In this document: one piece after another, positions 1-17,793 of the stretch | How the letters are laid out: the number at the start of each line of letters is the position of its first letter | Position numbering within the stretch: the first letter of the stretch is position 1 | Origin: Caballeronia peredens | GTDB taxonomy: Bacteria > Pseudomonadota > Gammaproteobacteria > Burkholderiales > Burkholderiaceae | Direction of reading: 5' to 3' | Assembly (NCBI GenBank): GCA_001544595.2 | Contig: FCOH02000004.1 | Coordinates: 1 to 64,000, forward strand | DNA length: 64,000 bases | Notes under the pieces: generated by a model | The model's input: only the letters and a program-made list of their open reading frames with translations | The model's database searches: none | Told to the model about the DNA's origin: nothing | Translations under genes and position numbers: made by a program

Positions 1-74
1 CTTTCTATATATAAAGGATTTCATTTTTTTGTCAATAGCAAAAGACGACTTGGATATCTTCTTTTGTTGAAAAT

Positions 75-97
75 AAAAAGCCCACCGAAGTGGGCTT
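75..97 (-). terminator. Rho-independent terminator of the 1257-aa gene
   Basis: A perfect AGCCCAC/GTGGGCT hairpin with a short loop. Read on the minus strand it is followed by a run of T residues. It lies about 20 bases past the stop of the large minus-strand gene. The identical 23 bases recur at 5790-5812. Confidence 0.8.
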
Positions 98-118
98 GGT
101 AGCGCTGTTGGTGCACAG

Positions 119-3892: not shown

Positions 3893-4026
3893 TTTGCGAC
3901 CCTATTTTTGTTGATTGGCGGTGACCCTCAGGACAACGAGTGTAGCCGTGAAGCTTCGTTCCGGCTATATCGGCACGCGGTGCAGTATCTTGAGATATCT
4001 GACCGCCCCAATCTTTTTCCCCAAGG

Positions 4027-4054
4027 TTGATAAATGGTAATTTCCTGTTAATGT
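4027..4054 (+). promoter_or_regulatory. Candidate sigma-70 promoter of the 360-aa gene
   Basis: TTGATA at 4027-4032 and TAATGT at 4049-4054 are separated by 16 bases, in an AT-rich patch 22 bases upstream of the start codon. A GGGAG ribosome-binding site follows. Confidence 0.4.
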
Positions 4055-4075
4055 GGATGTAAACGGGAGACTAAG

Positions 4076-5158
4076 ATGCCAACAACAATTGACAAAAATA
4101 AAATATATAGATTAACTGATGGCGAGAATGAAGTATTCACTATCGGATATCTTTCAAATTCAGAAGATGTATCTAGCTTGGTCTGTCAAAGTGCTGCAAG
4201 GGCAATGGCTGAACTTGAGGCCAAGTCTGTCGATGCAGTCAGAGACTTGTTGAACGCGAGAGATGTCAGCTACACAAGTAAGCGTCCCGATCTTGATGCC
4301 GATGTTGATAGGGTCTTCGGACATGCGAAGCGCAACATCGCCAAGGCGACGACCATAGTAGTTGATCGCATTGAAGTCCGGGATGATGCGGTTGTCGTCC
4401 GCGATGCGAAGATGGGGATGGAGTCTTGGGCTGTGCCGTTTCACTATCCGGCACATGATGAGTCCATGCTGGAGCGCGACCGGAAGTGTCTGGCTTTTCT
4501 AGAGGGAAGGCGAAGCATTGAGGAAGCCGTTGAGCTTGCGAAGATTGACGACAAACTTCCGGTTCTATTCGCTAACCGTGACCTGACCGAAAAGCAACTC
4601 GCTACCCTGGCTGCGAACACGAGTGAGCAAAGCTGGAACTGGATACTGCAAAGAACGGAACGAAGGTTGACGGACCATAGAACCGCTTACGAGCTTCTGC
4701 GTGATGTGGCGGCCGGCTCCGATTTGACCGATCCAACGGACTTGCCTGTTCGGGTGGCTCAGTTCGTGGATTACTCCGTGCGAAGCGACCCGTCCTTCAT
4801 CAAAAGTGTCGTCTCCCTGCCTGATTGTGGCTGTTATGCGCTCGCAACCGTGTGCCCGAACTCCATGAGAGCAGACCCTGAGATTGTGATACCCGCGTTG
4901 AAAAATGGTTTGCCCTTTCATGCGGTGATGCCGTCGCTGAAGCAAAACGATGACTTCGTGTTACGTGCCGCCTACGAGGTGCCAGCCGATAGGCTCAAAG
5001 GTGTGGGCAAGTCACATCTGAGTGAAAAGCTGCAAGCGGAGATAGGAGAGCATGACCCCTCCATCTACTTGAGAGCCAAGGCTCTGCGCATGAAGCTAGA
5101 CAGCCAGCTTCCGAATAACGAAGGAAAACAAGTGAGGCGGGTAGGATTGAAGATCTGA
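4076..5158 (+). CDS. Hypothetical protein (360 aa), island orphan
   Basis: I do not recognise this protein. It is soluble in composition, with no signal peptide or membrane segment, and mostly mixed helix and strand. A DCGCYA stretch lies in the C-terminal third and the C-terminus is basic. The ATG at 4076 is preceded by GGGAG at a good distance. It is the only plus-strand gene of the island part seen here and lies between the divergent 1257-aa gene and a convergent small gene, so it is probably a single-gene transcript with its own promoter and terminator. No function is proposed. Confidence 0.8.
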   Translation: MPTTIDKNKIYRLTDGENEVFTIGYLSNSEDVSSLVCQSAARAMAELEAKSVDAVRDLLNARDVSYTSKRPDLDADVDRVFGHAKRNIAKATTIVVDRIEVRDDAVVVRDAKMGMESWAVPFHYPAHDESMLERDRKCLAFLEGRRSIEEAVELAKIDDKLPVLFANRDLTEKQLATLAANTSEQSWNWILQRTERRLTDHRTAYELLRDVAAGSDLTDPTDLPVRVAQFVDYSVRSDPSFIKSVVSLPDCGCYALATVCPNSMRADPEIVIPALKNGLPFHAVMPSLKQNDDFVLRAAYEVPADRLKGVGKSHLSEKLQAEIGEHDPSIYLRAKALRMKLDSQLPNNEGKQVRRVGLKI

Positions 5159-5167
5159 GGCATGAAG

Positions 5168-5189
5168 AAGCCCCGTTTTCAGGGGCTTT
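5168..5189 (+). terminator. Terminator-like hairpin after the 360-aa gene
   Basis: AAGCCCC and GGGGCTTT form a perfect stem over a GTTTTCA loop about ten bases past the stop codon. The T run is short (CTTTC), so it may act in both directions for the two convergent genes. Confidence 0.65.
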
Positions 5190-5202
5190 CGGACTTACGC
5201 GA

Positions 5203-5736
5203 CTACAGACCTCGGGCAACATCGGGAAGCTTCAATTTGTGCCTGTTTTCCCATGCATTGAGCCACATCTGGGCGGTGCTGTGGATGAGGGCGAAGATGC
5301 GCTCGTCCAGTTCGGTGACGGGCATCGTGCCATCGGTGTGGAAGATATGAGCATCAACATCTCGGGGAAAGCGGTGGCTGTCAAAGACGGCTGGGTTTTG
5401 GTGTCTGGTTGATTCCACACGGTAGCCGAAAATCAGGTCGCCGTTCTCGTCCATCTTGTAGCCGATGTCATACCAGATGAGCGACAGGCTATTGAGCCAA
5501 AGGTTGAACTTCAGGATGGTTTCGAGAGCCTTCTTGTGTTCGCTTGGATGCCATGCCAATGAGATGACCTGAAGGAACTCTTGGCTCGTGAGGTAGCAGT
5601 GTCCATTGGCAACCAGTTCATCGCGAATTTTGAGATGAAGTGAAGTGACGGCAATGCGGAACGCTCCACGGACTTCCAGCTTGTTGTCTTCCTTGGAGAT
5701 ATAGACATTCAGAAGCTTAGGTTTCGTCTTCGTCAT
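5203..5736 (-). CDS. Hypothetical protein (177 aa)
   Basis: I do not recognise this protein. It is small and soluble, with a lysine-rich N-terminus (MTKTKPKLLNVYISKEDNKL), a central region rich in Trp, His and aromatic residues, and a basic C-terminus. No signal peptide or transmembrane segment is visible. The ATG at 5736 has no clear Shine–Dalgarno sequence, and the region just upstream is AT-rich (TATATC), so a promoter close to the start is possible. It converges on the 360-aa gene. Function unknown. Confidence 0.7.
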   Translation of the reverse strand: MTKTKPKLLNVYISKEDNKLEVRGAFRIAVTSLHLKIRDELVANGHCYLTSQEFLQVISLAWHPSEHKKALETILKFNLWLNSLSLIWYDIGYKMDENGDLIFGYRVESTRHQNPAVFDSHRFPRDVDAHIFHTDGTMPVTELDERIFALIHSTAQMWLNAWENRHKLKLPDVARGL

Positions 5737-5789
5737 GATGTTAGTAGATATATTGTTGTTAGAAAGCTAAGGTAAATCTAACGGGTACA

Positions 5790-5812
5790 AAAAAGCCCAC
5801 CGAAGTGGGCTT
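5790..5812 (-). terminator. Rho-independent terminator, copy of that at 75-97
   Basis: The same 23 bases as at 75-97: an AGCCCAC/GTGGGCT hairpin with a T run on the minus strand. It lies 20 bases past the stop of the H-NS-like gene. Confidence 0.8.
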
Positions 5813-5833
5813 CTCTGTGGGTGCTGCTAGCTA

Positions 5834-6544
5834 CTACGCTGCCTTCTTTTCGGGAGCCGCTTTTTTTGCCTTCTTGTCAGCGGCGATTCGTGCTTGTTCG
5901 GCTGCACGTTTCTCGTATGCCGCGCCCGCCTTGTCTACCGCTTCACGACTGAAGCCGAAATCGTCAAGCTGGCTTTTGCTCGCCTTTTGCTTTGCGATGA
6001 GTTCAAGGCGATAGATTACCTCCATCACTTTGTTCGGCTTGTCCAAGGACTGGTGGATGTAACCCTTAAGAGGTTTTCCTTCTTTCAGATCCTTGACGAT
6101 TGTCGCGATGTGCGCGTTGTCTGCGATGCCACGGCCGCCGAAGAACACTTCGTTACCGTTCACGAGGAAGTGACGGCGGGAACCTGCCGACTCAGAATCA
6201 GAAGACCGATCTGCCGCTTTTGCGGGGGTGGTCTTCCCCAGACCCAGCGTAGACACTGCATATTCCCGAATCGCTTCTTTCGGGAAGAGTTTGTCGATGC
6301 TCAGGCCTTGAGCTTGAATGACGTCGGGCAGGGTTGCACCGTAGAGTTCTTCGAGTGTAAGACCAAAATCAGTCACTTGCTTTTGGACCTTGGCTATGTC
6401 GGTGCCGCGCTTCGCTTTGTTCGTCTGGATTTCCGTGCGGAGCTTCGTAAGTTCTTCCAGTTCTTTGCCGTCGAGTTCAACGAAGCGCGCATAGAGGTAT
6501 TCGTAACGTGCAGCATTTTTTTCGCTAAGATAGGTCACAGACAT
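5834..6544 (-). CDS. Possible H-NS/xenogeneic-silencer-like protein (236 aa)
   Basis: The N-terminal 60 residues are predicted to be coiled, with a charged helix about 26-58. They run into DFGLTLEELYG (59-69), which resembles the linker seen after the oligomerisation helix of betaproteobacterial H-NS-type proteins. Near 128-140 the NGNEVFFGGRGIADNA segment recalls, weakly, the Gly-Arg-Gly AT-hook-like motif of that family. The C-terminus (205-236) is a Lys/Ala-rich tail suited to DNA binding. ATG at 6544 follows AAGGA nine bases upstream, and the gene has a good promoter and a terminator of its own. Islands often carry such nucleoid proteins that silence their own genes, so this role is plausible. 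The match is motif-level only; a phage-type DNA-binding protein is an alternative. Confidence 0.6.
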   Translation of the reverse strand: MSVTYLSEKNAARYEYLYARFVELDGKELEELTKLRTEIQTNKAKRGTDIAKVQKQVTDFGLTLEELYGATLPDVIQAQGLSIDKLFPKEAIREYAVSTLGLGKTTPAKAADRSSDSESAGSRRHFLVNGNEVFFGGRGIADNAHIATIVKDLKEGKPLKGYIHQSLDKPNKVMEVIYRLELIAKQKASKSQLDDFGFSREAVDKAGAAYEKRAAEQARIAADKKAKKAAPEKKAA

Positions 6545-6603
6545 GTTGTTTCGTCCTTGTTTCTAAAAAGTTCTTGTTGGGACACACTAGGTGGGTTACC
6601 GTT

Positions 6604-6626
6604 CAACAAACAACACTTGCTTGTTG
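6604..6626. repeat. CAACAA/TTGTTG imperfect inverted repeat
   Basis: CAACAA (6604-6609) and TTGTTG (6621-6626) flank an 11-base centre just downstream of the -10 element of the H-NS-like gene. It could be an operator for autoregulation; function is inferred from position only. Confidence 0.3.
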
Positions 6627-6634
6627 ATGTATGT

Positions 6635-6664
6635 ATTGTATTTAGGGTAGAGATGTAGCGTCAA
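6635..6664 (-). promoter_or_regulatory. Strong sigma-70 promoter of the H-NS-like gene
   Basis: On the minus strand TTGACG (6664-6659) and TACAAT (6640-6635) are 18 bases apart, both near consensus. The start codon is about 90 bases downstream, leaving a long leader. Confidence 0.6.
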
Positions 6665-6739
6665 TCGAAATAGAGTGAACGTTTCGAAAATAATTGATAT
6701 CGGAACAGACTTGTTTGATAGCTAACACGTATGACACGC

Positions 6740-6768
6740 CGCCTGAAGATCTCTCAACACTTCAGGCG
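6740..6768. repeat. Perfect 9-bp inverted repeat after the defence operon
   Basis: CGCCTGAAG (6740-6748) and CTTCAGGCG (6760-6768) can form a hairpin 16 bases past the stop of the last gene of the operon. There is no T run on either side, so it is either a weak terminator, an RNA 3'-end stabiliser or an operator. Confidence 0.45.
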
Positions 6769-6783
6769 AGCCAAAACGAAGTA

Positions 6784-7341
6784 TCAAAGTGGACGTCTGG
6801 CCGGTCTTCTTGCAACCGGCTTTCTTGTCACACCAAGGATGTGAGCGAGACCGTCAGCTTCCAAATCTGCGAGCAAATTCGCATACATCTCGGTGCGGAA
6901 GCTGCGAAGGGAATTCGCGAACTCGGGGCTGAGCTTGTCGGAACTGGCGTCGTCAATGAATCTATAGATTTGGTAAGTATTTTTGAGCTTGTCCAGAGCC
7001 CGCAACCCCTTCACCGCGTCCACCACGTCATCGGTTGAGATTTCGGGAACGGGCTGATCCTCCCGTTGTGCCACGAAAATGCCGAGAACATAAAAAGGCA
7101 ATGTTCTCGGAAAACTACGAATAAGGGTTGCTGGATACTGGGAACCCGAGTTCAGTATCGCTTGCTTCAGGTCTTCGACCGGGACATAGGGCTCAACCAC
7201 CTTATAGTCCGCCTTTCTAACCGCCAAGGCTTCGTTCAGCCGGTCGAGTTCTTGATGCGCACTCGTCAATGCATCAGCGAGTTCTTGAGGGTTGTGTTGC
7301 TCTGGGTTCTTCAAAACGACAAGTGCTTGCAGGTAGTCCAT
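6784..7341 (-). CDS. Small protein of unknown function, last gene of the defence operon (185 aa)
   Basis: I chose ATG at 7341 rather than the longer reading from 7521. It is preceded by a TGGAG ribosome-binding site, and the longer form would overlap the upstream gene by more than 100 bases with low-quality sequence. The protein is soluble and mostly helical, with heptad-like spacing in its first 45 residues and an Arg/Pro-rich C-terminus (RKPVARRPARRPL) that could bind nucleic acid. It lies 46 bases after the GHKL gene on the same strand and so is probably cotranscribed. I do not recognise a family; a structural or regulatory partner of the neighbouring ATPase is a guess. Confidence 0.75.
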   Translation of the reverse strand: MDYLQALVVLKNPEQHNPQELADALTSAHQELDRLNEALAVRKADYKVVEPYVPVEDLKQAILNSGSQYPATLIRSFPRTLPFYVLGIFVAQREDQPVPEISTDDVVDAVKGLRALDKLKNTYQIYRFIDDASSDKLSPEFANSLRSFRTEMYANLLADLEADGLAHILGVTRKPVARRPARRPL

Positions 7342-7387
7342 GAACACTCCAGTCGGGTGGGTGAAGGTGAGCTTTTTCGGGATATGG

Positions 7388-9328
7388 CTACTGCTCAGCC
7401 AAGAGGCTGTCTTGAACGACATCTTGCGGGTTGAGGAAAGTCTCAAGTTGCATTTGCTGGTCAAGCAAGAAGGGGGCATCCTTGACCTTGTGGTGAAGGT
7501 TGAGCATTCGCCTTTCCGCACGAACTAAGATGGTGTCGTAGCGTAACGGGCGGATCTTCACTTGGTCATCGTCTTCGGTTCGCACACCTCCTTCGCCCTG
7601 CTCGATTTGGTCGCCCAAGATGAAGCCATCAACCTTGGTGGATCTCGTGATGATTCCCTTCTTCTTCAATTCCTTCACATACTTCCAAACCTGCTCCTTC
7701 TCCTTAGAGCCGAGTGCCAAACCTGTAGTTTTTAGATCCACGATGATGACATGGGCGACACCCGCTTCATTGTATTCCTCATCGAACGACGAACACGCAT
7801 AAAAGCCGACACTGCTGTCAGGGAGGATAACGAAATCTGGTCGGTTTAAGGTGCCCCTTGCCCCCTTAACGCCAAAGAGGTCGCGGATTACCGTTGTCAT
7901 GCCACGGTTCGCCGTAAATTCAATGGATTCGAATTGAGGACCGAACATCCACAGCCCTTTTTCAAACAGCGGCTGAAGCTCGTGGACTTCATCGATACCG
8001 GGGACTTGCACCTTCGCCTTAAGTTCAGAAATCAGTTTGAGACGCGTCTGAATTTCATCAAGCGCAATCTTTGCCATGCCCACGGTCCATTCCGTGAGGA
8101 TATTATGAAGAGCGTCTAGGTCTGATGATGCCTGAACGTGAAGGAGGTCCAAAAGACCAAATCGTGACTTCGTCTTCTCAAGTTTCGTCAGAATGGTGGA
8201 AAGCTGTAGGATTTCCTGTTCACCAAAGTTTGGGCACTTCTCTACCACTTCATGAACAAAAGCGTTGACTCGCTCCTTGCTAAGCGGTCCGAGTGTCTTG
8301 ACTGATGGACCAATCTTGTCCAACACGTTTTGACGCTTGGCATTTAGCTCGTCGCGTGTCGTATCAGCAATGATGCCCCTAATCTTGTCTTGGATGATCG
8401 GGCGCACCTTCGCCCAGACAGGGTTTTCATCCTTAAACCAAGACCAGTCTTCCTTCACAGCATCGGCCGCTTTGAGGAAGTCAGCTTGAACAATGAAGGT
8501 ATAACGCTTTGCCTCTGACGACCGCCCGTCCAGGATGCGCGAGTAATCGGTGCTGCGCCACGCACAATCTCCTACCGCGCGATTGAGAACCCACCATGCG
8601 ATGCCATGTTGCTTGGTCGATTTATCAGCTTTGCGAGCGTCTATATGGTGAATCGTTGCCTTTCCCGCTCCAGGAATATCCACCTCAACTACTGACAGGC
8701 TTTCGGTCGGGATATCGTTGAATGTGATTCGCGTGTCATGCACATAGACTTCAAACGCTGGATTTGCAAGGAACCTGCTACCGAGTAGTTGGCGTGCCTG
8801 TTCATCGCTGAACGATAGCTGCGGGATGGTCCCAACGCCGCGAATCTCGGTGCCATGACCCGTGAGACCTTCGATTTCGTGCTCAATTGTTTCAAGAACG
8901 AGAGGGTTGCTGGGTGTTCTCGACACCTTGACCGTAAATTCCTCACCATCCTTGCGTGATGTCACCGTATATTCGGTTGCGAAGCAGAAGCTTGCAAAGC
9001 GTCCCTTCCCATTCTTTCCAAACACTGGACGAGGAAAGCCAACAACGTCGCTCGGTGGTTCCGTGGTCGTTCCGAACTTGGCGATGCGGTCATACGACAT
9101 CGCGCGCCAAATGTATTGGAACTCGGCTAACGTCATGCCCTTTCCATTGTCGACGATGGAGAAGGGCACGTTGGCTTTTGCATCGGGCAGGGTAATACTA
9201 ACCTGCGTTGCATAGGCGTCCCAACCGTTGGCTACCAATTCAACGATAGCGGTGCTCGGATTCGTGATAATCGGTCCTGCCCAACTCTCAAGAAATCGGT
9301 CCTCGTAGAGCAATCCTTGCTGATCCAT
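7388..9328 (-). CDS. GHKL ATPase with C-terminal PD-(D/E)XK-like domain (646 aa)
   Basis: The N-terminal domain has the Bergerat fold signatures of gyrase B/Hsp90/MutL ATPases: the N box with E30, N34 and D37, the G1 box DNGKGM (60-65), a glycine-rich lid KNGKGR (105-110) and a GHGTEI segment (157-162). Residues 340-450 are helical. The C-terminal part reads like a PD-(D/E)XK nuclease: RPDFVIL with D498, a V-D-L-K strand with D531 and K533, and QVWKY (Q546, Y550), which fits the Q-x3-Y helix. The sequence before it (GLWMFGPQF, 458-466) recalls the layout of Shedu-type DUF4263 proteins. ATP-driven conformational change could gate cleavage. It lies 50 bases after the GIY-YIG gene in the same transcript. 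The ATPase call is strong; the nuclease call is from motifs only. Confidence 0.85.
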   Translation of the reverse strand: MDQQGLLYEDRFLESWAGPIITNPSTAIVELVANGWDAYATQVSITLPDAKANVPFSIVDNGKGMTLAEFQYIWRAMSYDRIAKFGTTTEPPSDVVGFPRPVFGKNGKGRFASFCFATEYTVTSRKDGEEFTVKVSRTPSNPLVLETIEHEIEGLTGHGTEIRGVGTIPQLSFSDEQARQLLGSRFLANPAFEVYVHDTRITFNDIPTESLSVVEVDIPGAGKATIHHIDARKADKSTKQHGIAWWVLNRAVGDCAWRSTDYSRILDGRSSEAKRYTFIVQADFLKAADAVKEDWSWFKDENPVWAKVRPIIQDKIRGIIADTTRDELNAKRQNVLDKIGPSVKTLGPLSKERVNAFVHEVVEKCPNFGEQEILQLSTILTKLEKTKSRFGLLDLLHVQASSDLDALHNILTEWTVGMAKIALDEIQTRLKLISELKAKVQVPGIDEVHELQPLFEKGLWMFGPQFESIEFTANRGMTTVIRDLFGVKGARGTLNRPDFVILPDSSVGFYACSSFDEEYNEAGVAHVIIVDLKTTGLALGSKEKEQVWKYVKELKKKGIITRSTKVDGFILGDQIEQGEGGVRTEDDDQVKIRPLRYDTILVRAERRMLNLHHKVKDAPFLLDQQMQLETFLNPQDVVQDSLLAEQ

Positions 9329-9378
9329 GAGCTTCCTTTGTTCTTATGTCTCGATCCGTCAATGTGCTTCGCAATCTT

Positions 9379-10542
9379 CTAGCGAAGGACTACCTCTTGC
9401 TTGTCGCCGTCATAGCGATAGTGAACGATTTCACCGTTGATGAGCAACTGGACAGCAAGCTCAATGGCTTGAATGGGAGCGATAAACCATTCTTTTGGCA
9501 CAGCTTTCTGCCCCTTGGCATCAATGACTTCCACGTTCAGGCAATGGTTGCCAAAGAAGGTATGAATCAGGTGCTCAAACTTCTGGGTGTTCATGTTGTA
9601 GCACTGGAACGCCATGACAGCTTTCACAGGTGCCATCAGATAGGTAGCCTCGTGCGCGGCGTTCTTGATGCGGTCTTGCACGGACCCCGTGGTGAAGCCT
9701 ATCTTGTAGAGGTGATCGATACCTGCAATCTCGGGGTTCTCGCTTAGCGACTTGAGGATGTAGATGTAGCCGCTGGGTTTGTCCTCGTCAGTGATGCCTT
9801 CCAAGGCTTCCAACGCCTTGTCCCGGCTGTCCAGAATGCGGCGGCCGGCATCATCTCGATAAAGCTCACGAGCAAGAGAGCGAAGCAGGATGTCGGACTC
9901 TGTGCCGTTTTGATAGATGCATCGAAGCCGCGCATTCATCTTCCCGTTCTTCGCAATCCGCTCGGGTGCGCCGACATGAGCCACATAGACCATGACACCA
10001 TGAACGATGAAGAAGTGACCTTCCTTGATTTGCTGTTCGCCTGTGAACTTGCGGGATTCGCGGACCCCAGCAACCAACTCCACCTGACACTGCTTAAATA
10101 GGAGTTCAAACTCAGCGAAGTCCTTGCACGGTTTGCGCTTGGCAATGCGGTCTGGAAGGTCCACATCGGTTGGCACATGCTTCATTTTGAAGATGTCTTC
10201 GGCTCCATCGTCCAGTAGCCCCATGGAGTCGTCAGCGAAGATGTCGTCAATGCTGGAAACGGGCTTGCCCAGAAGCTCGCGAGAGTCAAACGGGCGCAGC
10301 TTCTCTAGCTTCTCCGGACTCGTGCGGATTGCCGCCAAGCGATTGCATAGGCGATATTCGTGAACACTGGTTTCGCTGGGCCCTGGCTCGCGGCCGTTTG
10401 CGGCGTAGAAATCTTCGATTTCCTTGAAAGATTCCAGCAGGCGCGCATCGTCTCCCAGCGGTTTGAATGCGGCTGGCTGCTTGACTTGCAGCAGCCCGTC
10501 GTCGTCATCTTCAACTAGCCTAAGAAGGTCTTCGAGCTTCAT
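9379..10542 (-). CDS. GIY-YIG nuclease family protein (387 aa)
   Basis: The C-terminal third is a GIY-YIG fold of the T5orf172 type. GYIYILKS (258-265) supplies the first strand, LYKIGFTTG (278-286) the second with conserved Tyr and Gly, R291 begins the following helix, and E323 in KFEHLIHTFF is the expected metal-binding glutamate. EWF (351-353) closes the fold. The first 255 residues are helical, without a motif I recognise, and may be a targeting or partner-binding domain. The start overlaps the helicase stop by four bases, so translation is probably coupled. In a defence operon without an HsdR-type subunit this is a candidate effector nuclease. It could instead be a structural use of the fold, though the key residues appear present. 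Confidence 0.85.
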   Translation of the reverse strand: MKLEDLLRLVEDDDDGLLQVKQPAAFKPLGDDARLLESFKEIEDFYAANGREPGPSETSVHEYRLCNRLAAIRTSPEKLEKLRPFDSRELLGKPVSSIDDIFADDSMGLLDDGAEDIFKMKHVPTDVDLPDRIAKRKPCKDFAEFELLFKQCQVELVAGVRESRKFTGEQQIKEGHFFIVHGVMVYVAHVGAPERIAKNGKMNARLRCIYQNGTESDILLRSLARELYRDDAGRRILDSRDKALEALEGITDEDKPSGYIYILKSLSENPEIAGIDHLYKIGFTTGSVQDRIKNAAHEATYLMAPVKAVMAFQCYNMNTQKFEHLIHTFFGNHCLNVEVIDAKGQKAVPKEWFIAPIQAIELAVQLLINGEIVHYRYDGDKQEVVLR

Positions 10543-12461
10543 ACGCCCTCTTTGCGACGTTGTGTTTTAATATAAATGAGCGCCTCGGCCATGCGCACTT
10601 CGATTGGGTCGGCCGCCTCAAGGTTTGGTGCGCGACCGTTGATGCGATTGAACTCTTTGATTTTCGGCCAAAGTACAAGAGCTTCTTCGTCCGTCATTTC
10701 GATGCGCGTTGAGGCGATGGTTTCCTGAATAAGCTTGAGCACGCCAGCAGTCACCGACTTAGACAGAATTTCATATGCCGCTTGGAACGGGTTGATCTGG
10801 TCAATGAGGTCGATGTGCAGGTCGTTAATGTTGACGAACCTGCCCGCCATCTTGATGAACTTCTTGTTGCCGTCTTCCTTGAACTCGCTACCCTTAAAGA
10901 CTGAATCGGCCACCACATGCTGGCGAAGCGACTCTACGTCCTCTTCATTGAGGTCGGGGTAGCGTATCTTAATGATCTTTGGAATGAGAACTTTGTTGAT
11001 GACCTCAGGACTCACGCTGCGAGGTAGAGCCTTCAGCATGGTCTCGTCCTGAAGGATCTGCGCCTTGAGATCCTGAAGGTCGGAGTCCAAAATCTCCTTC
11101 ACTCGCTTGGACTTCGGCTCCTTGAAGCCTTTGATCTTCACTTCACCCGGTCCCGCCTGATCATCATCCGAGACCTTCGTTTTGAACTTGAAGGTAGGGG
11201 CCAAGACCTGCTCCATCAAAAGAGAACAGGTAATCGCCTTTAGCATGTTGTTCACCGACAGTCTCACCAGACCATCAGAGGCATCTGGCTGTGCGATGAG
11301 GTTGGTGAACTGCGCGTGTGTCTTATTGCTGCTGTCACGCGTGCAGCGGCCGATGATTTGGATGATTTCAGTAAGGGAGCCGCGATACCCGACCGTCAAT
11401 GCGTGCTCGCAAAACGACCAATCGAAGCCTTCTTTGGCCATGCCCAATGCGATGATAAGGTCCAGGTCATCCGGCGACTTGACGTTACGCAGAAACGACA
11501 CGATGCGGTCACGAGCTTTGGGTTCGTCAAAAACCAAGTCAGCAACCTTGATAATTTTGCCATCTTTACGCCGTTTGACATGCAGCAATCCAGTCGCCTC
11601 GTCTTGAAAGGCAACTGTGCCGATGCTTTCGAGGATTTGGTCAACTTCGTTGTATTTGTCCTGCGTTGCCTCGCCCGAACGGACACTAGGGATGTGCAAG
11701 ATCGTCTTTTTGTCCGTATCCAGAATATCGGGGATCGCCTTGAGGTATTTTCCGCCTGTATAAAAATGATAGCCAATACCCAGCGACTTCAGATACGTGT
11801 AGCCGTTAAGTTGCTCGTAGTAGTTATAGGTTACTTTGGTGAAGCGGGATTCGTCCTCAGGCAAAAGGACTGGAACACTGTCTCCCCGGAAGTAAGAGCC
11901 TGTCATCGCAACTACATGAGCGGTCGAGTTCTGCATGATGCTGCGAAGCAAGTAGCCCAGACGGTTGTCGCCATCTGCTGACACATGATGGAACTCGTCA
12001 ATTGCGAGAAGGCAGTTGTTGAAGACCTCGTCTTCCATCGCTTCACACGCGAAGCGAAGCGTTGCGTGCGTGCAAACAAGTATCTTGTCGTCGCCCGCCA
12101 TGAAATCGACGAACGCTTTGACTTTGCTGCCGTCGCCACCAGGAGTGCAGAGATTGTTTTTCGGTTCCACGGTCCAGTTAGCGAAGAAGCCGGATTCGCT
12201 CAGCGCCGTCGACCGGAACGAAGCACCAATGGAACGCTCCGGCACGGCGATGATCGCCTTCTTCACACCTTGGTGATGAAGTTTGTCCAAAGCGATGAAC
12301 ATGAGGGCACGGCTCTTCCCAGATGCGGGAGGAGCCTTCAACAACAGATATTGATTCTGGCGAGCTTCGAATGCGCGAGCTTGCATCTCACGCATTCCGA
12401 ATTCGTTGATGCTCGTGCTGTGGCCGGTCTGTTGGTAGGTCACTTCGATGAGATTAGGCAA
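10539..12461 (-). CDS. SF2 DEAD/DEAH-type helicase (640 aa)
   Basis: Motif I (Walker A) is APPASGKS at 43-50, motif II is DEFHH at 155-159, motif III-like MTGSY is at 186-190, motif V-like ALGMAKEGFDW at 338-348, and motif VI QIIGRCTRD at 368-376 supplies the arginine finger. This is a complete two-lobe superfamily 2 core such as is found in restriction and defence helicases, followed by about 250 residues without an evident nuclease domain. It starts eight bases inside the end of the methyltransferase gene and ends four bases inside the GIY-YIG gene, so the three are translationally coupled. The expected role is ATP-dependent DNA translocation or remodelling on unmodified or invading DNA. 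Function as the helicase subunit of an Hma-like system is inferred from context. Confidence 0.9.
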   Translation of the reverse strand: MPNLIEVTYQQTGHSTSINEFGMREMQARAFEARQNQYLLLKAPPASGKSRALMFIALDKLHHQGVKKAIIAVPERSIGASFRSTALSESGFFANWTVEPKNNLCTPGGDGSKVKAFVDFMAGDDKILVCTHATLRFACEAMEDEVFNNCLLAIDEFHHVSADGDNRLGYLLRSIMQNSTAHVVAMTGSYFRGDSVPVLLPEDESRFTKVTYNYYEQLNGYTYLKSLGIGYHFYTGGKYLKAIPDILDTDKKTILHIPSVRSGEATQDKYNEVDQILESIGTVAFQDEATGLLHVKRRKDGKIIKVADLVFDEPKARDRIVSFLRNVKSPDDLDLIIALGMAKEGFDWSFCEHALTVGYRGSLTEIIQIIGRCTRDSSNKTHAQFTNLIAQPDASDGLVRLSVNNMLKAITCSLLMEQVLAPTFKFKTKVSDDDQAGPGEVKIKGFKEPKSKRVKEILDSDLQDLKAQILQDETMLKALPRSVSPEVINKVLIPKIIKIRYPDLNEEDVESLRQHVVADSVFKGSEFKEDGNKKFIKMAGRFVNINDLHIDLIDQINPFQAAYEILSKSVTAGVLKLIQETIASTRIEMTDEEALVLWPKIKEFNRINGRAPNLEAADPIEVRMAEALIYIKTQRRKEGV

Positions 12462-15117
12462 CTTCGGCCTCCGTTATTCTTTCGTAGAGCTTGAACAGGA
12501 ACTCCAGTCGTTCCTGATCTGTTTCGAATGCCTTCGCACGAAACACCTTGTCAACCTCTCGGTCTAGCCGGTCGTGTGCGCACTTCAGCGACACTGGCAT
12601 CGTGTCTGGGTCGTAGAGAAACTCAATGCTTTTGTCTGGAAACTGCTCCCGCTCCGCTAGCACTGCCATTGCTGCCTTGGCAATCGCTTTCTTCGTTTCT
12701 TCCTTCACCTTGGGCATTGGAAAGGTGTTGTAGACGATCTCCGGTGCGTAACGAAGGCGGGTCTCAAGTTGTCCGCCAATCGACCGCACCCAAGCAATGT
12801 GCATCTTCGAGGACACGATGCCGAACACGAAGGGTGACGCATCATAGATAGCGTTGGCTGAATTGGTAATGACAACCCCAGGTTCAAGATAGCCGACTGG
12901 TATGTATTCGCGACGTTCCGAGGAGGTAGCAGGAACAACTATCGAGTGTTGATTCTTGAACAGTCGTTGTGCGAACTTGTGCGGTATCTTCGCGTATTGA
13001 TTTGTTGTCTTCGCGCTCGACGCCATACGGAACTCATAAACAGCATCTATGCGCTTGGCGATTGGAGGGATCGACCGCGCTAGTTCTAATTGGCTGTCTT
13101 CTATCCAGAGACACCAACGAAATACACCACTGATGAACTCGTTCGTCCCGGTGAGGCGTTTGAAGAGTGGCTGTGCCTGTGGATACTTCGCCAGAATTTC
13201 GTCCTTGGTCTCTTCCAGCATGATGAGCTGCTTGCCGTCGCGAGCCATGCTGCCAATCATCATTACGGGAAGATCCGATATGATCGTAGAGGTGCGTTCA
13301 ACACAAATGTTGCTTCCCTCGGTGAGGTAGGGACTTATGTTGGCGACGGTGGTCTTAATGTTGTCGGAATAAAGTGTCTTTGGGGCGTTGGAAATGTTAC
13401 GCACGCCGACAATTACACACGTAACTCCGGCATTACGTTTTGCGTTGTTTGACCACTTGAAGGACTGGTAAGCGAAGTGCAACTCAAGCCCTTCATTCCA
13501 CACTCGTGGCCAAATGTATGAAACCTGCTCGCCTTGGCAGATGGAGTTTGTCGAGACGAATCCGAAGCTTGAGTTGTGTCCGGAGATATAGCGCGAAGCC
13601 TTTAGCAACCAGACACTTATGTAGTCGCTGTCTTTATGGTCTTCATGGTCATTGAAAGCCTGACGCAAATCTTCCTTCTGCTCACGAGTCTGATTTCTCG
13701 CTCCGAGGTAGGGTGGGTTGCCGAGGACGAAGACCGGATCAGGCATGGTGTTGTCGCATACCGCTCGCCAATCGGCGCTTGCAGCGTTGTCGCACACGAT
13801 GTTTCCGCTGGGCTTCAGAGGAAGGGTGGGCTCGCTCCTGCCAAAGCGCTCGTGAAACACAAGGTTCATCTGATGCTCGGCAAGCCAGAGTGAAAGTAGA
13901 GCCACTTCGTGAGCGAAATCATCTAGCTCAATGCCGTAAAACTGTGACAGGCGTACACCAGACATTCCCAAGTCGCTTTGCTTGTTTATCTCGTCCAGGC
14001 GCTTGAAGATTTCCATCTCAAGCTTGCGCAACTCCTTGTAGGCGATGATGAGAAAGTTGCCAGAGCCGCAAGCCGGGTCAAAAATTTTGATCTTCGAAAT
14101 GCGCAAAACAAGCTCGTGAAGACGCTTACTGTTATTCTTGTTTCGCTCAAATTCGGCGTTGAGGTCATCAAGGAACAACGGTTTGATGACCTTCATGATG
14201 TTCTCGAAGGATGTGTAGTGCATCCCCATGCTGCCGCGCTTGTCAACATCAACTACGGCTTGAATCATCGAACCGAAGATGTCAGGATTGATCTCTGACC
14301 AATTCAGTTCGGCGCCGCATTCAATGAGGATGCTGCGTGCGTGCTTAGAAAACTTGGGGACGGGGTGCTCGTCGGAAAACAATCCCCCATTCACATACGG
14401 GAACTCGACTAGGTAGCTAGGAACCTTGCTTCTGTCCTCGGTGTTAAGGACGCGGAAGAGAGTCGTCAGATAACTAGGAAGATCGCTGCCATCTTCCAGG
14501 GTGTGACCCTTCACCTTCAAAGTGAACAGGTCTTTGTCGAAGATACCTGTGTCTTCTGCGAAGAAGCAGAACAGGACGCGTGAAAGAAATACGTTTAGTG
14601 CGTGATTGCTTTCGGGGTCGTTTGCGGGGTTGTCGACCTTCAAGATGTCAAAGAGCTTCGCCATCTTCTCGGCGGCTCTGGCATCAGCTTGGTTCTCTTT
14701 TATGGGCAGATCTTTTTCCCGTCCGTCCCAAGGCAAGAAGAAGGCGAAGTTGTTCGGAAGCTCAACAAAGGGGACGTTTAGCCGTTCTCTCGTGCAAGTA
14801 TCAATGGCAGCGAGATCGTTGAAGTCGGTGACGATGATGAAGCGAGGCTGGTTACGCGAGACGGCCTGGCTCGACAACGCCTCTTCAAGTTTTGCGTGGA
14901 GATCGCTCTCAGCAGTCGGAATGTAGAGAACAGTTTTCTTCCAGAGTACTTGACCCGGCACCTTGGACAAGTTGTAGGAGCCGGGTCCCGTCGACTGAAG
15001 ACGGCTAACAGATGTCTTCGGCTTGCCATAGGCGAGCAAGAGGTCGTAAATGAACGACTGTTGATTAGAGTTCAGCAGTAGATGCCGGACATTCTCTTCT
15101 ATTTGTTCAATGTGCAT
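12454..15117 (-). CDS. Class I SAM-dependent adenine-type DNA methyltransferase (887 aa)
   Basis: Motif I for SAM binding is FDPACGSGNF (346-355) and motif IV is GNPPYLG (466-472), the N-P-P-Y form of N6-adenine methyltransferases. YGIELDD (394-400) fits motif II. The length and order (about 340 N-terminal residues, catalytic core, then a target-recognition C-terminal half) resemble MmeI-like and PglX-like enzymes. The N-terminal domain has no obvious PD-(D/E)XK triad, so this is probably a methylase without its own cutter. It heads the tightly overlapping methylase–helicase–GIY-YIG run. A GGGAAG sequence lies upstream of the ATG at 15117, slightly far away. Likely role: marking host DNA so that the operon's nucleases act only on unmodified DNA. 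Confidence 0.92.
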   Translation of the reverse strand: MHIEQIEENVRHLLLNSNQQSFIYDLLLAYGKPKTSVSRLQSTGPGSYNLSKVPGQVLWKKTVLYIPTAESDLHAKLEEALSSQAVSRNQPRFIIVTDFNDLAAIDTCTRERLNVPFVELPNNFAFFLPWDGREKDLPIKENQADARAAEKMAKLFDILKVDNPANDPESNHALNVFLSRVLFCFFAEDTGIFDKDLFTLKVKGHTLEDGSDLPSYLTTLFRVLNTEDRSKVPSYLVEFPYVNGGLFSDEHPVPKFSKHARSILIECGAELNWSEINPDIFGSMIQAVVDVDKRGSMGMHYTSFENIMKVIKPLFLDDLNAEFERNKNNSKRLHELVLRISKIKIFDPACGSGNFLIIAYKELRKLEMEIFKRLDEINKQSDLGMSGVRLSQFYGIELDDFAHEVALLSLWLAEHQMNLVFHERFGRSEPTLPLKPSGNIVCDNAASADWRAVCDNTMPDPVFVLGNPPYLGARNQTREQKEDLRQAFNDHEDHKDSDYISVWLLKASRYISGHNSSFGFVSTNSICQGEQVSYIWPRVWNEGLELHFAYQSFKWSNNAKRNAGVTCVIVGVRNISNAPKTLYSDNIKTTVANISPYLTEGSNICVERTSTIISDLPVMMIGSMARDGKQLIMLEETKDEILAKYPQAQPLFKRLTGTNEFISGVFRWCLWIEDSQLELARSIPPIAKRIDAVYEFRMASSAKTTNQYAKIPHKFAQRLFKNQHSIVVPATSSERREYIPVGYLEPGVVITNSANAIYDASPFVFGIVSSKMHIAWVRSIGGQLETRLRYAPEIVYNTFPMPKVKEETKKAIAKAAMAVLAEREQFPDKSIEFLYDPDTMPVSLKCAHDRLDREVDKVFRAKAFETDQERLEFLFKLYERITEAEVA

Positions 15118-15205
15118 TTTTGGGTTCTTCCCGGTCTCTCGGCCGGAGTTCCAACATGTTTCTTATCAGCCGCTTGACGAAAGCTCAGGACTATCACTGT
15201 GTTAA

Positions 15206-15235
15206 CGGGCTACGAGCAAGATTCTTGAGCCCGTA
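15206..15235. repeat. Hairpin-forming inverted repeat between the two nuclease/methylase units
   Basis: ACGGGCT (15206-15212) pairs with AGCCCGT (15229-15235), and CAAGA/TCTTG nests inside with a five-base bulge. On the plus strand TATTTTCG follows, but the neighbouring genes run on the minus strand, so a terminator for them is uncertain. It may instead be a regulatory structure in the 142-base gap ahead of the methyltransferase gene. Confidence 0.45.
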
Positions 15236-15259
15236 TTTTCGTCTGTTATCGGGGTGATG

Positions 15260-16288
15260 TCAGTATTTTTCATCTAAATCGCTTTTCTCCCACAAAAATT
15301 GGGAGTAGTAGAGCGGTAGCTTGAAATGCTTGCGTAGATGGATGAGATACTTTTTATCTTCATCGTTCGGTGCGGCCTCTCCAACAACAAGAAGCTCGTC
15401 AGCTAGTTGTTTATTTGAGTAGCATGAATATTCAAGAACCTGACCCAATGCTTCTCTGATGCACCGCTTTGCCGTTGATGCCGTTTTTATTTCTATAAAT
15501 GTCATGTGACCAGGCAAGTCAATTTTCAAATCCACGAAGTCGTCCTCATACTTCATGGCCTTCTTGCCGTGTCGGTCTCGCAATGTTTTGTAGAGCAAGT
15601 TTTGTATTTGGACGTGGCGTGGATCGTAGGTGGTGCCGCCAAAACCTTTCCTCGTTCTTTTTTTCTCGGACCGGGTCGCGTCACTTTCATCTTCCGATAC
15701 GTTGAGGTTCAGGACGAGCTTCAAATCGTCAGACCCGTAGTCGTAAGGATGGTAGCGTGAATTTTGAGCTATGGTGAGATTTGTGCTCGTTACATCAATC
15801 CATGGGTCAAAGAGAGTGACATCTTCCTGACGAAAACGAATATTTATTGATGGCTCGGTGAAGTAGGTCGTATCAACATCAAGAGCCTTCAGTTCGTTTC
15901 GCATGGTTCTGAGCCAGCCATTCTTCTTATACTGTTCCTGCGCCCACTCGATTTCGTCGGTCGGCGGGATGTAGACATGGTCAATCTTCCCAACAATCCA
16001 GCGTCTGCCTCTTTCATCAATGGTCCAGAGGAGAATCGATATCTCGTTGTCTTCGTAACTATCGCGGAACTTCTGGAGTGGTTGCACGAAAGCATAGTGA
16101 TATGCAGTTTCGTCACCCTCGTAGCCGGAGAGCATCCACTCGTAGCGAAACAGCCACTCCTCGGACCCGTATCCATTTTGTGACGCGTGACTCTTGGTCT
16201 CTAGACGCCTCGCGTCTCCCGATGGAAATTTCCAGCCGTATGTGTTGTAGCAGATCCTGACGAATTTATTACAAACGTTGTGCTTCAT
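15260..16288 (-). CDS. PD-(D/E)XK nuclease-like protein, possible modified-DNA sensor (342 aa)
   Basis: The C-terminal half shows a well-formed PD-(D/E)XK core: an acidic strand DDFVDLKIDL (249-258) with D253, FIEIKTA (264-270) with E266 and K268, and REALGQVLEY (278-287) giving Q283-x3-Y287. The N-terminal 110 residues (NGYGSEEWLFRYEW, then YAFVQPLQKF, and RRWIVGKIDHVYIP) look like a compact beta-rich module. Modules of this position and style in restriction enzymes are often PUA/EVE/SRA-like readers of modified bases; that is an inference. The ATG at 16288 has a poor ribosome-binding site. It precedes the methyltransferase by 142 bases and follows the small 189-aa gene by 45 bases, all on one strand. 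It could be a stand-alone type IV-like restriction enzyme or a partner of the downstream system. Confidence 0.8.
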   Translation of the reverse strand: MKHNVCNKFVRICYNTYGWKFPSGDARRLETKSHASQNGYGSEEWLFRYEWMLSGYEGDETAYHYAFVQPLQKFRDSYEDNEISILLWTIDERGRRWIVGKIDHVYIPPTDEIEWAQEQYKKNGWLRTMRNELKALDVDTTYFTEPSINIRFRQEDVTLFDPWIDVTSTNLTIAQNSRYHPYDYGSDDLKLVLNLNVSEDESDATRSEKKRTRKGFGGTTYDPRHVQIQNLLYKTLRDRHGKKAMKYEDDFVDLKIDLPGHMTFIEIKTASTAKRCIREALGQVLEYSCYSNKQLADELLVVGEAAPNDEDKKYLIHLRKHFKLPLYYSQFLWEKSDLDEKY

Positions 16289-16333
16289 TTTTTTTGTTTA
16301 TCTAAGGCTGCTTTTGGGTATCTGAGGAATTGC

Positions 16334-16903
16334 CTATAGTTTTCCGCCGTTGCCGCTCAAGCCTTTTTGGGTGGATAGGTTTGCCTCAAGCCTGCGAGCA
16401 AGGTCACGCGATCTAATGTAGCGGTTGACGATGCTGGAGGCGTTGCCGTCGCGCTCATCAATCAGTGTCGCGAGATCCAGGGCACTTTTCTCGTCGCCGT
16501 CCAACAGATCGAAGTCCAGCCCCATCCTGTCCACGGCCGCTAGGAACTGGACAAATGAAGCATGACTGTCGGCTGGGGCGAGGCGGGGATTGTTGCTGTA
16601 ACCGAAGTTGGCAAGAAAGTGAGCTAGGGTGCCCGTATATTTCCGTTGCTGGCCGTTTTGCAACACCACGGACTTGGTGTAAGCGTTGATGTCACTTCCG
16701 TTGGCGGTCAACAAACTGATCGTGTGCTGGGCTTCGGAAAGGCATGTCAGCGGGTAGCCGTCCAACAATTTCTCTTGTAGCCACTGGGCGATGTTGAAGC
16801 TCGCCAGTTCGCGGGAAGGGATGAGGGCGATGCATCGCTCTGCTTTTTCAGCGTTCGTGAAGAACACCTCTTTGAGTCGTTCCAGCTTCCCAAGAACAGT
16901 CAC
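16334..16903 (-). CDS. Hypothetical protein with weak ankyrin-like stretch (189 aa)
   Basis: I do not recognise the family with confidence. Residues about 90-150 contain two helix-loop units ending in DLLDGDEKSALDLATL, which resembles a degenerate ankyrin repeat. The rest is helical with a basic C-terminus. No signal peptide or transmembrane segment is visible. Its start overlaps the stop of the upstream HTH gene by four bases, so the pair is translationally coupled. It is probably a protein-binding accessory or regulator; the function is unknown. Confidence 0.75.
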   Translation of the reverse strand: MTVLGKLERLKEVFFTNAEKAERCIALIPSRELASFNIAQWLQEKLLDGYPLTCLSEAQHTISLLTANGSDINAYTKSVVLQNGQQRKYTGTLAHFLANFGYSNNPRLAPADSHASFVQFLAAVDRMGLDFDLLDGDEKSALDLATLIDERDGNASSIVNRYIRSRDLARRLEANLSTQKGLSGNGGKL

Positions 16904-17442
16904 ACTCTGTCTCCAAGAATGTCGTCCAGCTTCGCCAGCGTGTCTTCGCTCAGAGAAAAACCGTCCAAGGAGAAGATGAGCTTGTAGCCAGTAGGGTCAT
17001 CCTGAAGCTCAAGACTTTCGAAAAATTCAACTTCCTTCGTGCCGAAGATTATGAGGGGAGTGACGCTGTAGCCGGATGCGAACCGGCGCATCTGATTGAC
17101 CTTCTTGCCTTGCAAGGTGTTTTGAACCCGGTGGGCGTCAATGTATTCCCGAACATCAGCAAGGCAGTAGCGAACGGACTTCGGGTTTTTGATGGCTTTC
17201 GGTCCCTTGTCGATCTTGCGCCATTTCCTCAATGTCTCAACCGACTCACCTAGTAGCTCAGACAGTCGTTGCTCATCGATCAGTTGGAGGTCTTCCCAAG
17301 CATCGTGTTTTCTGGTCTGCGCCGTTGGCTGTTTATCCAGTAGCGGAATGAGGGCTTCAACCAAAGAAATGACGTGTGCCGCTGAGACAGGTGTGTCCGG
17401 GTCTAGCTTCTTGAGTTTGTAGAGTAGTTCAGTGGGGTGCAT
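16900..17442 (-). CDS. Excisionase/AlpA-like helix-turn-helix protein (180 aa)
   Basis: Residues 53-104 form a MerR/excisionase-type winged HTH (the HTH_17 style): LIDEQRLSELLGESVETLRK, then a basic turn W-R-K-I-D-K-G-P and a wing SVRYCLADVREYID. Such domains occur in AlpA/Xis-like recombination directionality factors and in phage or island regulators. The C-terminal half (110-180) is not recognised. It is the first gene of the minus-strand block and lies next to the iterons and tRNA-Lys. It could therefore regulate the block, assist island excision, or both. No integrase accompanies it here, which weakens a pure excisionase role. Confidence 0.8.
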   Translation of the reverse strand: MHPTELLYKLKKLDPDTPVSAAHVISLVEALIPLLDKQPTAQTRKHDAWEDLQLIDEQRLSELLGESVETLRKWRKIDKGPKAIKNPKSVRYCLADVREYIDAHRVQNTLQGKKVNQMRRFASGYSVTPLIIFGTKEVEFFESLELQDDPTGYKLIFSLDGFSLSEDTLAKLDDILGDRV

Positions 17443-17505
17443 AGCGACGAGGATGGAAGCTTCGCTATCGATGATGTCGGAAGAAAGTTGCGTTGTCTAT
17501 GGCGA

Positions 17506-17644
17506 GGCAACTAGGCAACCGGACGGGGGTTTCAAGGCAACCAAAGCCAGCCTTGTGCATGCTTCGCGACGTGCAAAGGGCCGTTTATGCGACCTTCAGG
17601 CAACCTTTTTGTGGTCATTGGCTGGTTGCCTATGGGTTGCCTAG
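17506..17644. repeat. GGCAACC iteron cluster next to tRNA-Lys (possible attachment-arm sites)
   Basis: Four direct copies of GGCAAC(C) (17506-17511, 17514-17520, 17536-17542, 17599-17605) and two inverted copies GGTTGCC (17624-17630, 17635-17641) lie within 140 bases. The outermost pair extends to a perfect inverted repeat, CTAGGCAACC (17511-17520) and GGTTGCCTAG (17635-17644). The position between the HTH gene and the tRNA 3' end suits arm sites of a recombinase or excisionase, or an operator array for the HTH protein. The rest of 17443-17717 holds only the terminator of the tRNA. Confidence 0.6.
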
Positions 17645-17668
17645 AACGGAAACCCGCGTTCGGACAAG

Positions 17669-17701
17669 AAAAAAGGGACTACGATTTCTCGTAATCCCTT
17701 T
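17669..17701 (-). terminator. Terminator downstream of tRNA-Lys
   Basis: Read on the minus strand, AAAGGGATTACGA pairs with TCGTAGTCCCTTT (one mismatch) around a short loop and is followed by six T residues. It lies 17 bases past the tRNA 3' end. It looks like the native end of the tRNA transcript. Confidence 0.8.
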
Positions 17702-17717
17702 ATTTTCAAGCATTTAG

Positions 17718-17793
17718 TGGTGGGGCGTGAGTGACTCGAACACTCGACCTACGGATTAAGAGTCCGCTGCTCTACCAACTGAGCTAACGCCCC
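17718..17793 (-). tRNA. tRNA-Lys (anticodon CTT)
   Basis: A 76-base cloverleaf with encoded CCA. The 5' end GGGGCGT pairs with ACGCCCC, the anticodon loop is CTCTTAA, which gives anticodon CTT reading AAG, and the T loop is TTCGAGT. The 3' end borders the low-GC island, making this the likely insertion site; the gene itself is intact. Confidence 0.97.

Follow-up and report, generated by a model that had tools for sequence, protein, structure and literature searches.

Five adjacent genes on a tRNA island of Caballeronia peredens raise the question of whether they act together as one, possibly undescribed, defense system or are neighbors of kinds that have been described before. The genes lie in the stretch of DNA analyzed here (the window; 64,000 nt, positions 1 to 64,000 of contig FCOH02000004.1), and a first-pass annotation had read them as a candidate Hma-like, possibly undescribed system. 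That interpretation held in part: the defense role and the island setting were supported, and the Hma assignment and the single undescribed system were not. The reading that we favor, and consider probable, is that two defense modules share one tRNA-Lys island, namely, a restriction-modification-like module of the DnmA/YeeA-YeeB-YeeC type and a paraMORC3/VcSduA-like protein that is most likely independent of it. The cluster looks largely ordinary, and its relatives show what look like signs of swapping of the DNA-reading part.

Gene cluster and tRNA-Lys island

12454..15117, minus strand: gene 1, 887 aa, DnmA/YeeA-type adenine methyltransferase (MTase)
10539..12461, minus strand: gene 2, 640 aa, TTG start behind GGAGG, YeeB-type SF2 helicase (DEAD/ResIII)
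9379..10542, minus strand: gene 3, 387 aa, YeeC-type protein with a C-terminal GIY-YIG (T5orf172) domain
7388..9328, minus strand: gene 4, 646 aa, GHKL protein, paraMORC3/VcSduA-like
6784..7341, minus strand: gene 5, 185 aa from its ATG, acidic, no family
15260..16288, minus strand: upstream neighbor of the MTase gene, 342 aa, in neither module
16900..17442, minus strand: excisionase/HTH-like island gene (phrog_66 "excisionase and transcriptional regulator," 9.2e-7; HTH_17 below the cut-off)
17718..17793, minus strand: tRNA-Lys(CTT), integration site of the island
1-17717: island, ending at the 3' end of tRNA-Lys

Genes 1 and 2 overlap by 8 bp and genes 2 and 3 by 4 bp; genes 3 and 4 are separated by 50 bp (9329-9378) and genes 4 and 5 by 46 bp (7342-7387), with no terminator-like site in either of these two gaps around the GHKL gene. 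The earlier description of five closely packed minus-strand genes was confirmed except for its "small basic" last protein: gene 5 has a pI of 5.7, and the basic protein (pI 9.3) is the product of the next gene (5834-6544). Gene 5 matched no family above the cut-off in profile scans (Pfam, PADLOC, and others) of a piece that started 5 codons upstream, and it had no match in plasmids or in 57 other genomes of its genus; in the favored two-module reading, the 185-aa protein would be an unassigned passenger. The 342-aa neighbor on the other side contains a stretch, FIEIKTA, that appears nuclease-like by eye. It matched no Pfam family and nothing in the loci that were read, and it had distant matches in 6 plasmid records, one of them beneath an annotated HNH endonuclease.

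The placement of these genes in a tRNA island is supported by two features of the right border. In each of the 12 relatives searched within the genus, the match to the right flank begins at window positions 17712-17718, the 3' end of tRNA-Lys (as one long piece in 8 relatives and in several pieces in 4), and GC content is 51.6% to the left of this border versus 63.9% to the right. Because the window begins at base 1 of the contig, the island extends beyond the contig end. In the relative G502, a GHKL homologue (64%) is located ~21 kb away from the corresponding tRNA-Lys, and a partial copy of the tRNA lies in between.

Genes 1 to 3 form a DnmA/YeeA-YeeB-YeeC cluster

The product of gene 1 had been called an N6-adenine-type methyltransferase, and it proved to be an MmeI-type NPPY enzyme. 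All five MmeI domains scored above the Pfam cut-off (PF20464/20465/20473/20466/20467), in the order MmeI_N, helical spacer, MTase (NPPY), TRD, and C domain; MmeI was the sole solved relative at an E value of 0.001 (5hr4, E = 6e-193), and the PADLOC scan returned REase_MTase_IIG at 1.1e-300. The available part of PMC4833311 gives D70, E80, and K82 as the nuclease residues of MmeI. At the corresponding columns, (D/E)xK was found in 0 of 62 YeeA-type MTases, the window's included, with the MmeI-type enzyme of locus L037, which has EHK, as the reference. A single-chain restriction enzyme of Type IIL/IIG was ruled out on this ground, since the nuclease D..ExK is absent from the MTase chain, and this is also where the window protein differs from the Type IIL enzyme MmeI.

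The residues that contact bases in MmeI, taken from the same portion of PMC4833311, allow part of the target to be predicted. E785/R787 of the window MTase equal the two MmeI residues that specify C at position 6, and R789 together with the small S753 would read R or G at position 4; T731/L784 flank the methylated A at position 5, and A730/N752 stand at position 3, to which no base was assigned. The predicted target therefore ends in RAC or GAC.

Gene 2 carries DEAD and ResIII, and gene 3 carries T5orf172/MUG113 (GIY-YIG), so the SF2 helicase and GIY-YIG nuclease of the first-pass annotation are confirmed at the level of Pfam domains. Both proteins belong to large families, with at least 8,000 homologues of the helicase (8,000 of 8,000 scored candidates) and at least 3,559 of the GIY-YIG protein (3,559 of 7,996 scored candidates), and the source names among the best 120 listed homologues include YeeC-like and YeeB.

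Besides the window, we read 81 helicase loci: 27 found among 399 genomes from the order (where the window's own made a 28th match), 13 further ones from 398 genomes of the family (16 matches, the others being the window's own and two already counted), and 41 from viral contigs. At 69 of the 81 loci, the helicase gene had an MTase gene on its own strand no more than 4 kb away (61 of 62 where the upstream flank was 3.5 kb or longer), and a GIY-YIG gene was likewise present at 77 of 81 (75 of 77 where the downstream flank was 1.5 kb or longer); these are counts of mechanically called open reading frames (ORFs) at loci and not of independent events, as some viral loci are near copies (L155/L159 and L143/L144). 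Dozens of loci thus contain genes 1 to 3 in this order, and the full five-gene set was not seen in any other locus read.

This trio is the DnmA/YeeA-YeeB-YeeC cluster described previously. According to the available portions of two papers on Bacillus subtilis (PMC7261158 and PMC9973331), DnmA/YeeA is an MmeI homologue that lacks the endonuclease motif and makes m6A at GACG(m6A)AG, and yeeB and yeeC lie directly 3' of dnmA in conserved order; the same portions point to older work in which the cluster was proposed to be a Type I-like system and, in 2011, predicted to consist of defense genes. The window matches B. subtilis and its relatives in having an MmeI-type methylase without ExK, an SF2 helicase, and a T5orf172/GIY-YIG gene, with the helicase gene first and the GIY-YIG gene second downstream of the methylase gene on one strand. 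It differs in that the trio is followed by the GHKL-nuclease gene and the 185-aa gene.

The methylase also bears on the idea that the cluster is Hma or a variant of it, which we regard as extremely improbable. A helicase, a methylase, and an ATPase are all present, as they are in Hma, a PADLOC candidate system. However, Hma as described in the available text of PMC8565338 combines a helicase and an ATPase with an m5C methyltransferase (HmaB), whereas the window has an MmeI-type NPPY adenine enzyme, an extra GIY-YIG gene, and an ATPase with a nuclease motif, and we rejected the Hma assignment. No Hma-named family appeared among the 10 PADLOC families listed for the helicase, the 2 listed for the GHKL protein, or the best 25 of 46 for the MTase in a copy of PADLOC that may lack Hma models. 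BREX and MADS were likewise rejected, with NCBIfam scores of 33.7 bits against a cut-off of 500 (BREX-1, PglX) and 14.3 bits against a cut-off of 720 (MAD2). For class 1 DISARM, the DrmMI model matched the MTase at 1.1e-35 and 120.9 bits, far below the 997.7 bits of the IIG model, and no Drm-named match was among the families listed for the other eight proteins scanned.

Apparent TRD replacement among near-identical trios

Results from B. subtilis give weight to an alternative in which the trio is a methylation relic, the MTase serving as an orphan regulator and YeeB and YeeC being spent. In the accessible sections of PMC7261158 and PMC9973331, single deletions of dnmA, yeeB, and yeeC left sensitivity to three phages unchanged, deletion of dnmA left transformation unchanged, and phage genomes showed no avoidance of the DnmA site; the authors called the cluster a "relic." The sections of PMC9973331 at hand also relate that deletions of dnmA and yeeB in Vibrio crassostreae raised sensitivity to some phages, which speaks against this alternative, as does the conservation of catalytic residues in YeeB and YeeC across the family. 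The helicase stretches GKS, DEFHH, TGSYFRG, and GRCTRD are conserved and nearly invariant across 58 loci, and none of the 37 aligned sequences of the YeeC-type protein departs from Y261, R291, and E323.

A further argument comes from the TRD, which we compared across the 58 loci that have all three genes at full length, the window included (24 others were dropped). NPPY/F/W was present in 56 of the 58 MTases, and the residues equivalent to the MmeI base contacts occurred in 44 combinations. Among the 244 pairs of loci whose helicases are at least 75% identical, median identity was 0.44 in the TRD versus 0.79 in the N domain and 0.88 in the C domain; TRD identity was below 0.5 in 197 pairs and at least 0.8 in 3, and a sliding view placed the drop at about residues 481-800. 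The 14 pairs with helicase identity of at least 95%, all of them outside the window's own helicase subgroup (640 aa), had medians of 0.43 for the TRD versus 0.95 and 0.94 for the N and C domains, with TRD identity below 0.5 in 10 of 14 and at least 0.8 in 2 of 14. The pairs share loci and are thus not independent, and YeeA-type MTases were the only family compared.

We read this drop as replacement of a specificity cassette between near-identical operons. Replacement of the TRD while the remaining operon stays nearly identical is what the specificity subunit of a working restriction-modification system would be expected to show, and it argues against the relic view for the family, not for every member. 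The pattern appears to fit live restriction-modification better than a relic, and we consider the relic alternative quite improbable. We found no report of TRD replacement in YeeABC in the open-license literature; the pattern is new here and is the most useful by-product of this analysis.

Gene 4 encodes a GHKL ATPase with a putative C-terminal nuclease

The claim of a GHKL ATPase with an apparent nuclease domain was upheld by a match to Pfam HATPase_c_3 and by a conserved C-terminal PD-(D/E)xK motif. The GHKL ATPase, with its N-terminal ATP-binding motifs intact, occupies about residues 1-205 and is followed by a possible S5-like region to about residue 328 and by the motif R496-P-D498 ... 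D531-L-K533 ... Q546. The C terminus has a conserved E-D-(D/E)xK-Q pattern, by which motif the nuclease was assigned, the restriction fold itself being unmatched. Across 10 GHKL sequences, the E, RPD, K, Q, and Y columns are invariant; the window protein has DLK, and ExK occurs in relatives.

This layout of N-terminal GHKL, middle region, and C-terminal PD-(D/E)xK nuclease is that of VcSduA (GHKL-Shedu, "Shedu type I-D") and paraMORC3, and gene 4 appears to fit that class. It differs from VcSduA/paraMORC3 in having DLK rather than ELK, in its position behind yeeC, and in that SduA_C, the Shedu domain model, did not recognize the window protein or its C terminus. SduA_C was not listed for any of 44 GHKL relatives, PF14082 reached an E value of 0.028, below the cut-off, on the protein of L038, and no Shedu chain was matched in the profile A3 search. 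In the parts of the published accounts that are available, the class is presented as a stand-alone defense, mostly without fixed partners, and VcSduA protects against phage alone, with its ATPase and nuclease residues required.

Association of the GHKL gene with the trio

Genes 1 to 3 and the GHKL gene thus each fit known defense-type modules, which leaves the notion of an undescribed five-gene system weakly supported at best. One alternative is an integrated system, in which the methylase would mark self for both a YeeB-YeeC arm and a GHKL-nuclease arm, with or without the 185-aa protein. The common strand, the 50- and 46-bp gaps, and the lack of a terminator-like site in them agree with such a system. 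Against it, no GHKL gene was found within 8 kb of the helicase gene at any of the 81 helicase loci (75 with at least 4 kb downstream), and neither a helicase gene nor a GIY-YIG gene was found at any of 23 other GHKL loci (two of them on short contigs: L039, 6.7 kb, and L104, 11.3 kb). Of these 23 loci, three came from the order, ten from the family, four from a set of 8 plasmids, and the other six from two further sets (four and two). GHKL homologues were present in 4 genomes out of 399 for the order and in 11 out of 398 for the family; both figures include that of the window. One genome, G214, has both a GHKL gene and a helicase gene, on different contigs.

Four of the 23 other GHKL loci (a raw count) have a methylase for asymmetric sites nearby, and the nine loci closest to the window's GHKL protein (58-65% identity; L001-L004, L037, L039, and L095-L097) include three of the four, which favors integration. 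At L037, an intact MmeI-type methylase gene lies two genes upstream of the GHKL gene on the same strand; at L091, a split and weak methylase is nearby; and at L095, a truncated Type ISP enzyme that matches LlaBIII over residues 19-1116 is separated from the GHKL gene by one 312-aa gene. L097 has an IS21 element between remnants of a YeeA-type MTase (first 361 residues, 56% identical to the window's) and a GHKL protein (first 367 residues, 64% identical), which face each other. In addition, one 12,946-base metagenome contig probably holds a GHKL gene (84%), a helicase gene (82%), and a GIY-YIG gene (72%), a joint placement deduced from the longest-contig size shared by P0242, P0123, and P0003.

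Co-occurrence of the neighbors in other genomes, which the single-system claim presupposed, was therefore lacking between the GHKL gene and the helicase and GIY-YIG genes (0/81 and 0/23) and for gene 5, and the L097 remnants and the metagenome contig leave a possible link for the GHKL gene. Islands gather restriction genes in any case, and the GHKL class is documented as stand-alone. Weighing these points, we consider one integrated system rather unlikely. Also unlikely, and slightly more so, is a version in which the GHKL branch of the window would supply an accessory destroyer to restriction systems for asymmetric sites (YeeABC, the Type IIL system of L037, the Type ISP system of L095, and the L097 remnant). 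The shared strand, the 50-bp gap, L097, and the metagenome contig are nevertheless signs that run counter to full independence of the two modules.

Other trios have genes lodged within or behind them. At 20 of 81 loci, the MTase and helicase genes enclose an ORF of 120 aa or more on their strand; at 32 of 81, an ORF of at least 100 aa, likewise on the same strand, starts within 150 bp of the GIY-YIG gene; and 44 of 81 have either kind. All three counts are upper bounds, since mutS is one of these ORFs and some others seem spurious. When 20 hand-picked ORFs of this kind were compared with PADLOC, 13 matched a family at an E value below 1e-25, one matched weakly (L049, 2.2e-13), and six had no match. 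The families were PDC-S02/YhcG, Ppl, GajA, GajB, PDC-S05/RhuM, AbiJ, PDC-S60, "Helicase" PDLC03002, Drt3a, Drt3b, HEC-08, PDC-S15, and PDC-S32. The GHKL gene of the window occupies the same place, behind yeeC, as the trailing ORFs.

Proposed function and implications

For the strain of the window, we infer function throughout, including recruitment, cutting, the target, and the independence of the modules. The domains, motifs, gene order, border of the island, and diversity of the TRD among relatives were observed directly, and m6A formation by B. subtilis DnmA and phage defense by VcSduA are taken from the literature. In the two-module reading, the first module (12454-15117, 10539-12461, and 9379-10542) would be restriction-modification-like. 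Its MmeI-type enzyme would methylate one adenine in an asymmetric site with the predicted end ...RAC or ...GAC. With no nuclease of its own left, the MTase would probably be the recognition subunit on unmethylated foreign DNA, where it may engage the helicase/translocase YeeB and the GIY-YIG nuclease YeeC, the latter making the cut. In the second module (7388-9328), the GHKL ATPase would license the C-terminal PD-(D/E)xK nuclease against phage DNA, and this module most likely works by itself. If the accessory-destroyer version were true instead, YeeB-YeeC and a MORC-like nuclease would both rely on the self marks set by one nuclease-dead MmeI-like methylase.

The analysis gives names to the parts of a supposed new system. 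It also bears on how the DnmA-YeeB-YeeC cluster, which is widespread, should be seen: as a live restriction system or, as has been argued for B. subtilis, as a relic. The replacement of the TRD and the recognized defense genes within and behind trios speak for the former and indicate where it can be tested.

Other proteins of the island and related elements

A Pfam search returned no family for three proteins of the tRNA-Lys island in the window, and a fourth protein, a neighbor of the five-gene cluster, contains a stretch (FIEIKTA) that looks nuclease-like by eye.

119-3892: island protein, 1,257 aa, no Pfam family
4076-5158: island protein, 360 aa, no Pfam family
5203-5736: island protein, 177 aa, no Pfam family
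15260-16288: neighboring protein, 342 aa, with a FIEIKTA stretch

Distant homologues of the 342-aa protein were found on plasmids. The genome of the window carries a further element on contig C27, where an integrase-like gene (L174:7740-9158; assigned by eye) adjoins 53 bp identical to the 3′ part of tRNA-Lys (L174:9393-9445).

GHKL-nuclease genes also lie near methylases elsewhere. At L097 (genome G495; 8893-13540), an IS21 element separates remnants of a YeeA-type methylase gene and a GHKL-nuclease gene, both of them broken. At L095 (genome G502; 4366-10752), ~21 kb from the same tRNA-Lys as the window island, the gene for a truncated Type ISP enzyme resembling LlaBIII is followed by one encoding 312 aa and then by a GHKL-nuclease gene.

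Variability and annotation of yeeABC loci

Among the 58 methylases of full-length yeeABC loci, median identity in the target-recognition region (residues about 481 to 800, window numbering) was 0.43 for the 14 operon pairs whose helicases were at least 95% identical. The PADLOC type IIG model PDLC03598 matched the window methylase (12454-15117) at 1.1e-300, although this protein lacks the nuclease residues; because of such scoring, annotation may list yeeABC loci under single-chain type IIG enzymes. Recognized defense genes, including GajA/GajB, Drt3a/Drt3b, AbiJ, RhuM, and YhcG, lie within or immediately behind the trio (e.g., at loci L048, L050, L061, L121, L125, L129, and L131), an arrangement in which the trio resembles a cargo site.
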